32,467 bases of DNA from Tenericutes bacterium ADurb.Bin239. Lineage in GTDB: Bacteria > Bacillota_I > Bacilli_A > RFN20 > CAG-826. The DNA lies in the NCBI GenBank assembly GCA_002069815.1, contig MWCB01000017.1, forward strand, positions 1 to 32,467, written 5' to 3'. Positions within the stretch are counted from its first letter, which is position 1. Each line of letters opens with the position of its first letter. Positions 14,093 to 17,010 of this stretch are shown piece by piece. The notes beneath the pieces are model-generated. The model searched no databases. It was given only the letters and a program-made list of their open reading frames with translations, and had not been told where the DNA came from. The position numbers were made by a program, and so were the translations under genes.

Positions 14093-15565
14093 ATGCTACG
14101 AAACAATAATAATACTAAACCGAAAAAGACAGTAAACGGTCTTCATCCTGTTCGCTTCTGGATTATCGTGACCGTTATGGGTCTAGCTGGACACTTGTGT
14201 TGGAACATTGAAAACCAATGGTTTAATACATTTGTGTACGCTAAAATTGGTGGCGATGTTTCGATTGTGACATGGATGGTTATTGTCAGTGCCACAGTTA
14301 CGACTTTGTCTACCTTTATTTTTGGAACCCTAAGTGACCGAATGGGTAAACGGAAACGCTTTGTATCAATTGGTTATATTTTATGGGGTGTTGCGACGAT
14401 TTTGTTTGGTTTAACAGAGTTTGCTCGCAGTTCAGGAATTGGTTTCTTAATTTCACTTACAGGTTTTTTAGTTGTCTTTACTGATGCTGTGATGTCCTTC
14501 TTAGGGTCGCTTGCTTTTGATGCAGGCTATACGACATGGGTTAATGATTACACGGATGAAACAAACCAAGGGCAAATTGGGGGCGCTTTTGCGGCGCTTC
14601 CTGTTTTGGGTACAATTATTGGTACCGTCATTGGTGGTATTTTGGTTAATATTGGTAATCCCACTGTTGGAACGGAAAGTTATAATCCAAGTCTCGATAA
14701 TTATCAATTATTATTTTGGGGCATGGGCATTTTTGTTATTCTCATTGGAATTGCTTCCATCTTCTTGATGAAAGATGCACCAGACATTAAACCACATAAA
14801 GAAGGTTCATATTTTAAGCAATTTGCCCAAGTCTTTAATTTTAAAAAATTAAAAGGTCACAAAGAAAATAAAGAAATGTTCTTAGCGTGTCTTGTGGCTT
14901 GTTTCTTTTTCATACCATTTAACTTTTACTTTGTGCATATGGGGAACTGGTTAATTTATGATATTGGATTTACCGCTGGAGATATGGGTCTAATTGAAGG
15001 AATTGCTCTCATATTTTCCGTGCTAATTACCATTCCGTTTGCTAAACTAATTAATCGAAATCGAATTCCACTTGTGGCCCTTGTTGCTATCTTAGTAAAC
15101 GCAATTGGCTTAATAATGCTTTTCACCTTCATTAAAGATCCAAGCAATGTTGATAATAGTAGTGCCTTCAATCTTAAAAACGTTCCCTTGTTCGTTGCGG
15201 TCTTCTTAGTGGGAGCGGGTTATGTTTTAATTACCCAAACATGTATGGTGTGGGTCCGTGGCCTTTTTCCAAAAGAAAATCGCGGACAATTTGAAGGGAT
15301 TCGTTCATTATTCTTTACCCTTCTCCCCATGTTTATTGGTACATTAGCGGGTAATTTTATTATTAAAAATACAAGTCATAGCGAACAGCTAGACTTATAT
15401 GGAAATCCGATTGATGTTCCCCAAGAAAACTTATTTCTCTTTGCGGGATTAATGGTTTTACTGACAATCGTTCCGTTAGTGTTTGCGTGGCGTGCTTATG
15501 ATAAGCGGTTAAAAGAACAACGTTCGCTCGCGGATAAAATTGAAATTGTTGAACTTGAAAAATAA
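14093..15565 (+). CDS. MFS transporter, 12 helices
   Basis: The 490-residue protein has about 12 membrane helices and the MFS loop 2-3 signature FGTLSDRMGKRKRF near residue 80. The Trp/Asn-rich first helix (GHLCWNIENQWFNTFVY) resembles the SLC45/GPH-like branch of sugar carriers. AGAGGA precedes the ATG, which begins 2 nt after the stop of the oxidoreductase, so the genes are translationally linked. Substrate and direction of transport cannot be deduced. A terminator follows. Confidence 0.88.
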   Translation: MLRNNNNTKPKKTVNGLHPVRFWIIVTVMGLAGHLCWNIENQWFNTFVYAKIGGDVSIVTWMVIVSATVTTLSTFIFGTLSDRMGKRKRFVSIGYILWGVATILFGLTEFARSSGIGFLISLTGFLVVFTDAVMSFLGSLAFDAGYTTWVNDYTDETNQGQIGGAFAALPVLGTIIGTVIGGILVNIGNPTVGTESYNPSLDNYQLLFWGMGIFVILIGIASIFLMKDAPDIKPHKEGSYFKQFAQVFNFKKLKGHKENKEMFLACLVACFFFIPFNFYFVHMGNWLIYDIGFTAGDMGLIEGIALIFSVLITIPFAKLINRNRIPLVALVAILVNAIGLIMLFTFIKDPSNVDNSSAFNLKNVPLFVAVFLVGAGYVLITQTCMVWVRGLFPKENRGQFEGIRSLFFTLLPMFIGTLAGNFIIKNTSHSEQLDLYGNPIDVPQENLFLFAGLMVLLTIVPLVFAWRAYDKRLKEQRSLADKIEIVELEK

Positions 15566-15589
15566 ATAAATAACACACTGCAAGACGAC

Positions 15590-15617
15590 AGGGATGAATG
15601 CAGCATCCCTGTTTTTA
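15590..15617 (+). terminator. Terminator of the oxidoreductase/MFS unit
   Basis: ACAGGGATG pairs with CATCCCTGT across a short loop and is followed by TTTTATTG. Confidence 0.9.
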
Positions 15618-15663
15618 TTGTTTTATAATATTAATATTATTGCTTTAATAAACCGACTTATTT

Positions 15664-15672
15664 TGCTATACT
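15664..15672 (+). promoter_or_regulatory. metK promoter (extended -10)
   Basis: TGC-TATACT (15664-15672) is an extended -10. The -35 is poor. Transcription should begin close to 15679, just before the first strand of the riboswitch P1 helix at 15681. Confidence 0.55.
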
Positions 15673-15680
15673 AACAATGA

Positions 15681-15811
15681 CCTTATCAAGAACTACATTG
15701 TGGCATTCTTGTAGTAGCAACTCTTATGAACATAAGTAAGTGCTGGCCAAAGGCAAATCTTGTAACGATAAGGAAAGTGTTAAATTACTTTCCTTGCGAA
15801 AGTAATTTTAA
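15681..15811 (+). promoter_or_regulatory. Compact S-box-like (SAM-I-type) riboswitch before metK
   Basis: P1 is CCTTATC (15681-15687) with GATAAGG (15767-15773), followed by AAGA as in SAM-I. P2 is ACTACA/TGTAGT (15692-15697/15710-15715) with TGGC in its loop (15701-15704). Then come GCAAC (15717-15721), P3 CTTAT-GAAC-ATAAG and GTGCTG (15740-15745), whose GCTG can pair with the P2-loop TGGC, as UGGC/GCUA does in SAM-I. Expression platform: AAGGAAAGT (15770-15778), overlapping P1, pairs with ACTTTCCTT (15787-15795). That excludes the stem AAATTACTTTC/GAAAGTAATTT (15782-15792/15798-15808), which is followed by a short U-rich tract. High SAM should favour P1 and termination. The kink-turn of P2 and a full P4 appear to be missing. 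Confidence 0.75.
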
Positions 15812-15828
15812 TTAACGGAGGAACAATT

Positions 15829-17010
15829 ATGGCTAAATATCGATTATTTACCAGCGAATCAGTAAGTGAAGGACATCCTGATAAAGTATGCGATCAAATT
15901 AGTGATGCGATTTTAGATGCGGTTTTAGCTATTGATCATAAGGCGAAAGTAGCGTGTGAAGTATTTGCCACTAAAAACTTTGTACTGATAAGTGGTGAAA
16001 CTTCCTTAGCGGAAAAAGATGCGCCTGATTACGCGGCGATTGCTCGTGAAGTCATTAGCGATATTGGCTATACGGATCCCGCTTTACATTTCAGCGCGGA
16101 TGAAGTTGAAGTAGTTATTAAAATGAATAATCAAAGTAGTGATATTGCCCAAGGGGTAAATCAACCGCGACCCGAAGATCAAGGCGCTGGTGATCAAGGA
16201 ATTATGTTTGGGTACGCAACTAATGAAAGTGAGGGTTTAATGCCGCTGGCGATTGTTATTGCTCATAAATTAATGCGAGTGGCTACCAAAATGCGCAAAG
16301 ATGGCGAATTCCCTGGTGCACGCCCCGATATGAAGTCGCAAGTGACCATGCGTTATTATGAAGATGGGCACTCTGAAATTGACACCATATTAATGAGTGT
16401 CCAGCATGATGAAGATGTTAATTTTAAAGACTTTAAAAAGTTTATCCATCAAAATATTATGGTGCCAATTGCTAGGAGTTTTGGAATGAATACAGATTTC
16501 AAATATTTAGTTAATCCCACTGGTCGTTTTGTTATTGGGGGACCGGCGGGTGATACGGGTTTAACTGGTCGCAAAATAATTGTTGATACGTATGGTGGAT
16601 ATGCCAAACATGGTGGCGGTGCTTTCAGTGGGAAAGACCCAAGCAAGGTTGATAGAAGTGCAGCGTATTATGCCCGCTATATTGCTAAAAACTTAGTAGG
16701 GTCAGGGGTGTGTGAAGAAGTCGAAATTCAACTAAGTTATGCTATTGGTGTGCCAGAGCCATTAAGTATTGCGGTTGACACTTTTGGAACAGGAAAAGTT
16801 CCAAATGACGTCATTTTAGCGGCAATTTCCAAGTATTTTGACTGTCGCCCCGGGATGATTACACAAGAATTTAGCTTGCGAAAACCAGCTTTTAAATATC
16901 GTGACTTAGCCGCTCATGGTCATTTTGGACGCCCCGATATTAATATTCCATGGGAGCGTTTAGATAAAGTTAAAGTGCTTCAAAGTTACTTTAAAAAACA
17001 TTTAGTGTAA
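15829..17010 (+). CDS. metK: S-adenosylmethionine synthetase
   Basis: It makes SAM from methionine and ATP in the cytosol. The 393-residue protein is of normal length. The N-terminal FTSESVSEGHPDKVCDQISD, the loop signature GAGDQGIMFGYA and the phosphate-binding GGGAFSGKDPSKVDRS are all intact. ACGGAGG lies 7 nt before the ATG. It is preceded by a SAM-sensing leader, so end-product repression by attenuation is expected. No methionine or cysteine synthesis genes are nearby. Confidence 0.99.
   Translation: MAKYRLFTSESVSEGHPDKVCDQISDAILDAVLAIDHKAKVACEVFATKNFVLISGETSLAEKDAPDYAAIAREVISDIGYTDPALHFSADEVEVVIKMNNQSSDIAQGVNQPRPEDQGAGDQGIMFGYATNESEGLMPLAIVIAHKLMRVATKMRKDGEFPGARPDMKSQVTMRYYEDGHSEIDTILMSVQHDEDVNFKDFKKFIHQNIMVPIARSFGMNTDFKYLVNPTGRFVIGGPAGDTGLTGRKIIVDTYGGYAKHGGGAFSGKDPSKVDRSAAYYARYIAKNLVGSGVCEEVEIQLSYAIGVPEPLSIAVDTFGTGKVPNDVILAAISKYFDCRPGMITQEFSLRKPAFKYRDLAAHGHFGRPDINIPWERLDKVKVLQSYFKKHLV

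Follow-up and report, generated by a model that had tools for sequence, protein, structure and literature searches.

The leader of the S-adenosylmethionine synthetase gene metK in the Tenericutes bacterium ADurb.Bin239 is very likely a SAM-sensing transcriptional OFF switch, whose sensor is a form of the SAM-I aptamer peculiar to this lineage, without the P2b helix and the kink-turn. The element is real, since its agreement with the predicted structure is far beyond chance and its helices covary within one uncultured Bacilli-like family. An aptamer of the SAM-I clan without a kink-turn lies before metK throughout this family, and in most of the relatives it is probably connected to the expression platform by a new type of link. 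The window, which is the whole stretch of 32,467 nucleotides that was analysed, lies on contig C17 of a genome of 1.29 Mb in 68 contigs that is 94% complete.

The gene that precedes the metK leader has the appearance of a major-facilitator-type transporter and is followed by a terminator-like hairpin (Table 1). This hairpin (15587-15613) and the promoter-like site that ends at 15672 suggest that the metK leader is probably its own transcript beginning at P1, and the site would place the transcript start at approximately the first base of P1. The site is weak evidence when taken alone, since 2 sites of such quality were found and 1.7 were expected; a TATAAT-like box a few bases 5' of P1 also occurs in relatives, for example L009 and L013. 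A second, diverged metK-like gene is present in the same genome (G000:C40:1764-2852, L063; 48% identity), and the riboswitch core was not seen in its leader.

Table 1. Positions in the window of the parts of the metK leader and of the neighbouring features (RNA letters are used for the leader; an empty cell means that no entry is available).
Feature	Positions	Strand	Remarks
Gene preceding the leader, major-facilitator-type transporter by appearance	14093-15565		
Terminator-like hairpin after the transporter gene	15587-15613		
Promoter-like site, TTAATA-16-TATACT, TG before the -10 box	15645-15672	+	9/12 matches
P1 5' strand, CCUUAUC	15681-15687	+	Pairs with 15767-15773; covariation
J1/2, AAGA	15688-15691	+	Equivalents of SAM-I G11 (15690) and A12 (15691), each invariant in 100/100 family leaders
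P2, uninterrupted, 6 bp, without P2b or kink-turn	15692-15697/15710-15715	+	Covariation, signature scan
Loop L2	15698-15709	+	Caps P2
Pseudoknot strand in L2, UGGC	15701-15704	+	Predicted by homology to relatives
Pseudoknot partner in J3/4, GCCA	15746-15749	+	Predicted by homology to relatives
P3 with the SAM-I internal loop GCAAC/GUGC	15717-15743; loop 15717-15721/15740-15743	+	Covariation, invariant core
P3 outer stem	15723-15727/15732-15736	+	
P4, reduced	15753-15756/15760-15763, loop 15757-15759	+	Predicted by homology; alignments A1 and A2
P1 3' strand, GAUAAGG	15767-15773	+	Common to the antiterminator from 15770 on
Antiterminator, AAGGAAAGU/ACUUUCCUU	15770-15778/15787-15795	+	9 bp; 11 with flanking G.U pairs
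Terminator-like hairpin, loop CUUGC, short U run	15782-15792/15798-15808	+	About -6.7 kcal/mol
metK (S-adenosylmethionine synthetase), controlled gene	15829-17010	+	Directly downstream of the leader

A preliminary description of this region had proposed a lineage-specific, reduced aptamer of the SAM-I type with a terminator/antiterminator switch before metK, and this reading is supported by the present analysis. The landmarks on which it was based, CTTATCAAGA (15682-15691), GCAAC (15717-15721), GTGC (15740-15743) and GATAAG (15767-15772), are all present where it had placed them, as are the 6-bp P2 (15692-15697/15710-15715) with TGGC (15701-15704) in its loop and the two downstream pairings AAGGAAAGT/ACTTTCCTT and AAATTACTTTC/GAAAGTAATTT, which are mutually exclusive as claimed. 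The pseudoknot was only half correctly drawn: the TGGC strand is retained, but its proposed partner, GCTG (15742-15745), is rejected because homology gives GCCA (15746-15749) and because the first two bases of GCTG belong to P3. The 3-bp GCC/GGC stem that had been taken for P4 (15746-15748/15752-15754) overlaps the pseudoknot strand, and its pairing yields only -1.3 kcal/mol; judging from the relatives, it is probably not P4, which would instead be the next hairpin. P4 in the window thus corresponds approximately to G15753-A15756/U15760-U15763, with 4 bp, one of them G.U, and a 3-nt loop, while that of the relatives has 5-6 bp and a longer loop; J4/1 (AAC) adjoins P4 in the window, as it does in all of the relatives. 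P4 is atrophied in the window's genus, and the dwarf form is a peculiarity of that genus. When the window is considered alone, the 4-bp pseudoknot is not above chance (random combinations of L2 and J3/4 average 3.6 bp) and neither is the small P4, so that both assignments in the window are predictions that rest on homology.

The relatives supply the statistical weight that a single leader cannot. The metK gene was found in 55 of 58 relatives, and most leaders of the family have the same core in the same place, directly upstream of metK in those that were read. In an alignment of 34 family aptamers (A1), 96% of the cells in P1-P4 are paired and 21 pairs show two-sided change, a result that none of 500 shuffles produced. 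Across 100 family leaders, 95.1% of the cells in P1-P4 and the pseudoknot together are paired, with a covariation score of 0.624 as against 0.187 after shuffling. The pseudoknot between L2 and J3/4 is paired in 87.7% of cells, all 6 of its pairs show two-sided change, and when L2 and J3/4 were permuted against each other, the observed pairing was reached in 0 of 5000 trials; its strands vary widely while remaining complementary (AGAGA/UCUCU, AGGGAA/UUCCCU, CAACG/CGUUG in L008 and AUGGCG/CGCCAU in L078). Covariation across related metK leaders had been named beforehand as the observation on which the aptamer reading could fail, and it was found for P1, P2, P3, P4 and the pseudoknot.

A covariance model built for the family aptamer (R1) detects a single copy in each of 194 genomes among the 224 of the family, and in 112 of the 119 good ones. 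In a sample of the class, 50 of 296 genomes match, those outside the family with lower scores, and in a sample of the phylum all of the matches listed belong to the same class, with none outside the family at a typical family score. Named relatives include Candidatus Alloenteromonas pullistercoris and gut or rumen genomes labelled Mollicutes or Erysipelotrichaceae. Among the order relatives, the family f3 (G035, G042, G047, G052, G056) has the MetK closest to that of the family (62-64% identity), and its members give no match to the aptamer model, which implies that this control of metK has been lost or replaced there.

The positions in contact with SAM or around it in SAM-I (as listed in PMC3764141) are preserved almost without exception: U7, G11, A12, G43, C44, A45, A46, C47, G56, U57, G58, C59, G86 and A87 are each found in 100/100 family leaders, and A6 and U88 in 96/100. 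The element very probably works in the same way as canonical SAM-I, with SAM as the presumed ligand. A derivative of SAM-I with an altered ligand has a precedent in the spermidine riboswitch, a SAM-I variant which shares the SAM-I architecture and is sometimes found before metK, including one metK example (PMC10853860). That class, however, has changed J1/2 and the P3 internal loop at the SAM-contact positions, which are unchanged here, G11, A12, A45, A46, U57 and G58 being conserved in 100/100 leaders, and a change of ligand is accordingly given very little credence.

The absence of a kink-turn in P2, which had been noted for the window, is borne out as a trait of the whole family. A strict kink-turn signature (GA, at least 3 bp, loop, at least 3 bp, 2-4 nt, GA) occurs in only 3 of 100 family leaders, in overlapping strands, and in 12 of 100 after shuffling, whereas it is found in 16 of 32 outgroup leaders and in the SAM-I riboswitch of T. 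tengcongensis, which served as a positive control. P2 averages 6.7 bp in the family and 4.9 bp in the outgroups, and the pseudoknot between L2 and J3/4 averages 5.4 bp and 3.5 bp, respectively, with 4 bp in the window. In the family a straight P2 appears to have taken the place of the kinked P2a-P2b element, its loop making contact with J3/4 through a longer pseudoknot. The loop of the straight P2 would pair directly with J3/4 and so hold P2/P3 alongside P1/P4 without a kink; that such an arrangement works in three dimensions is something we infer from the sequences. The kink-turn is conserved in standard SAM-I (PMC2258182), and its disruption there lowers or abolishes the binding of SAM (PMC3651934, PMC5061560), which counts against the function of an aptamer without it. 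The SAM-I kink-turn is a textbook example of a required tertiary element, and a natural clade of roughly 200 species manages without it, which offers ready sequences for testing the purpose of the kink and its replacement by a pseudoknot. A SAM-I aptamer without a kink-turn was not found in the open-access literature, which is weak evidence of novelty because subscription journals lay largely outside the search.

RF00162, the SAM-I model, does not score the window at E 10 and passes its gathering cut-off in only about 5 metK leaders among 116 family genomes, while order-level relatives reach 46-65 bits with it at the same position before metK. Since many of these relatives pass, the element of the family grades into ordinary SAM-I; since most family leaders fall under the Rfam SAM cut-off, the regulation of metK in the family goes largely unannotated. 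A cmscan of the window against Rfam at gathering and permissive thresholds gave no SAM-clan match, even at E 10. The sole SAM-type line in the window is a SAM-SAH match on the terminator (10 bits, E 9.6), which is taken as chance, and an RF00162 match elsewhere in the same genome (G000:C24, 12.9 bits, E 4.9) was dismissed likewise.

It could be argued that the element is an ordinary SAM-I riboswitch with a degenerate and unrecognised kink-turn, and hence structurally nothing new. The gene context and the core are the same, RF00162 recognises the order-level relatives, and L2 retains an AUGAA-like sequence similar to the kink-turn's 3' strand. P2b, however, cannot be formed, because P2 is continuous (mean 6.7 bp) and the 5' half of its loop is the pseudoknot strand, and the strict signature occurs below its shuffled rate, which makes this explanation unlikely. 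The element is not filed as canonical SAM-I because it departs from that class in two of the defining features that were tested: the kink-turn is missing and the Rfam score falls short. It shares with SAM-I (the S box) the four-way junction of P1-P4, the GCAAC/GUGC internal loop of P3, the AAGA of J1/2, the SAM-contact bases, the pseudoknot PK-1 between L2 and J3/4, an antiterminator that competes with P1, and the metK context; it differs in the loss of P2b and the kink-turn, in a continuous P2 of 6-7 bp, in a PK-1 about 2 bp longer, in scores that mostly lie under the RF00162 cut-off, and in a P4 loop that pairs with the terminator in many relatives.

The preliminary description had placed the element between SAM-I and SAM-I/IV, and this placement does not stand. 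An undivided P2 and a P4 are both described for SAM-I/IV, which also has the same core, so membership in that class, or an intermediate position towards it, might be considered; but SAM-I/IV is described without PK-1 (PMC6890682), which in the family is kept, lengthened and covarying, and a search of 57 family genomes with its model RF01725 gave nothing above the cut-off, nor did the window's genome yield a match at E 1. Such an affiliation is highly improbable. SAM-IV has the same ligand core and PK-1 but differs in having P2a/P2b, P5 and PK-2 and in lacking P4 (PMC6890682). The PK-2 of SAM-I/IV joins the P3 loop to the 3' flank, and the P3 loops of the family are mostly 3-5 nt long.

The aptamer with a straight P2 is joined in the window to a switch of the classical type. 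The antiterminator has a stability of -12.5 kcal/mol when its flanking G.U pairs are counted; 5 of its bases belong also to P1, and it has AAGG in common with the P1 3' strand. The fold and its conservation, the lack of a kink-turn and the mutual exclusion of the pairings can be read from the sequences, as can the P4-loop complementarity of the relatives; the direction of the switch is presumably OFF. When SAM is plentiful, P1 (15681-15687/15767-15773) would be held closed and its 3' strand barred from downstream pairing, so that the hairpin at 15782-15808 could form and transcription would stop; when SAM is scarce, 15770-15778 would pair with 15787-15795 and metK would be transcribed. A point against this reading is that the computed fold of lowest energy for the whole leader (-31.1) has the antiterminator formed and P1 in an alternative form, in which UUA-CAAGA pairs with UCUUG-UAA (15683-15691/15758-15765). 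Such a helix would conceal J1/2 and release the 3' side of P1, and may be the P1 of the SAM-free state. The A+T-rich composition of the terminator-like hairpin and the shortness of its U run count against the proposed switch, and a simple terminator scan did not list the hairpin because it has fewer than three G-C pairs; in the next genus (L005) a run of seven T follows the homologous hairpin, which supports the reading of the window's hairpin as a terminator.

In most of the relatives the platform has an additional feature. In 74 of 97 leaders, examples being L009, L013, L020, L023 and L030, at least 5 nt of the P4 apical loop (consensus UCCCACA) can pair with the loop of the terminator and the first part of its 3' arm (UGUGGGA), and the bases change together (CCCACA/UGUGGG, CCCAUAA/UUAUGGG, CCCAGAA/UUCUGGG, CCCACG/CGUGGG, CCCACC/GGUGGG, UCCCCG/CGGGGA). 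When each P4 loop was compared with its own and with permuted terminators, the observed match was reached in 0 of 4000 permutations overall, in 0 of 4000 shuffled within genera, and in 0 of 2000 in each of five subsamples with a single species per genus. The control comparison of the P4 loop with the terminator 5' arm was null, and the outgroups gave no match (3.59 observed, 3.71 permuted). The corresponding pairing in the window itself (GCAA/UUGC, 4 nt) is at chance level and was rejected.

The P4 loop is probably a second limb of the antiterminator in most relatives, which would hold the terminator 3' arm as it emerges. In leaders with the P4 pairing the antiterminator overlaps P1 by only 1.2 bp, and its stability falls 7.3 kcal/mol short of that of the terminator, whereas those without it have a classical antiterminator with a P1 overlap of 4.3 bp and an energy gap of 0.4. 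Over 29 genera, longer P4 matches go with a larger energy gap between antiterminator and terminator (rho 0.77), a link that is partly built in because the terminator GGG pairs with the loop and also makes the stem stronger, and with a smaller P1 overlap (rho -0.58). The trait changes at least 4 times on supported branches of the MetK tree, and 8 times on the best tree; phylogenetically independent pairs for P4 pairing and platform type number 2.0 agreeing and 0.0 opposing, which is too few and not significant.

The same complementarity could instead reflect a kissing contact that stabilizes the formed terminator and promotes termination. As a rule, about three of the bases that pair are located in the terminator loop, and in 65 of 97 leaders the pairing spans the loop and the 3' arm. 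The pairing, however, normally extends into the 3' arm, the terminator stem of L023 and L218 encloses almost all of it, and leaders that have it possess stronger rather than weaker terminators and weaker antiterminators. A pro-termination contact is for these reasons rather unlikely, and an antiterminator limb is preferred. The cobalamin riboswitch offers an analogy in its L5-L13 kissing loop, where an aptamer loop also pairs with the expression platform; the aptamer and ligand are different there, and docking represses, while the proposed role of the P4 loop is antitermination.

A broader scheme, which has about an even chance of being correct, is that SAM-I has been rebuilt twice in this family: the kink-turn gave way to a long pseudoknot from a plain P2, and in most genera the P4 loop came to catch the terminator 3' arm, so that control by SAM would pass through P4 besides or instead of the exchange at P1, while the window's genus would have given up the second device and either kept the classical switch or returned to it. 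If this is true, it would be an undescribed route from a SAM-I aptamer to its expression platform, and one that has been switched on and off repeatedly between close genera. No pairing between a SAM-I P4 loop and a terminator was found in the open-access literature, which, with subscription journals largely outside its scope, says little about novelty.

A second compact SAM-I-like element occurs in the same family (L312-L315, L317, L318, L322 and others), including the window's own genus (G001:C23:6308-6397). It has the core CCATAAAGAG, a P2 with a kink-turn, a CAAGC/GCTTG pseudoknot and no P4, and it scores 45-62 bits with RF00162. The genes that follow it are unrelated or unknown (N-formylglutamate amidohydrolase-like, AAA/M41, Sel1, and several without a Pfam match), and the 3' strand of its P1 resembles the 3' arm of the next terminator-like hairpin.
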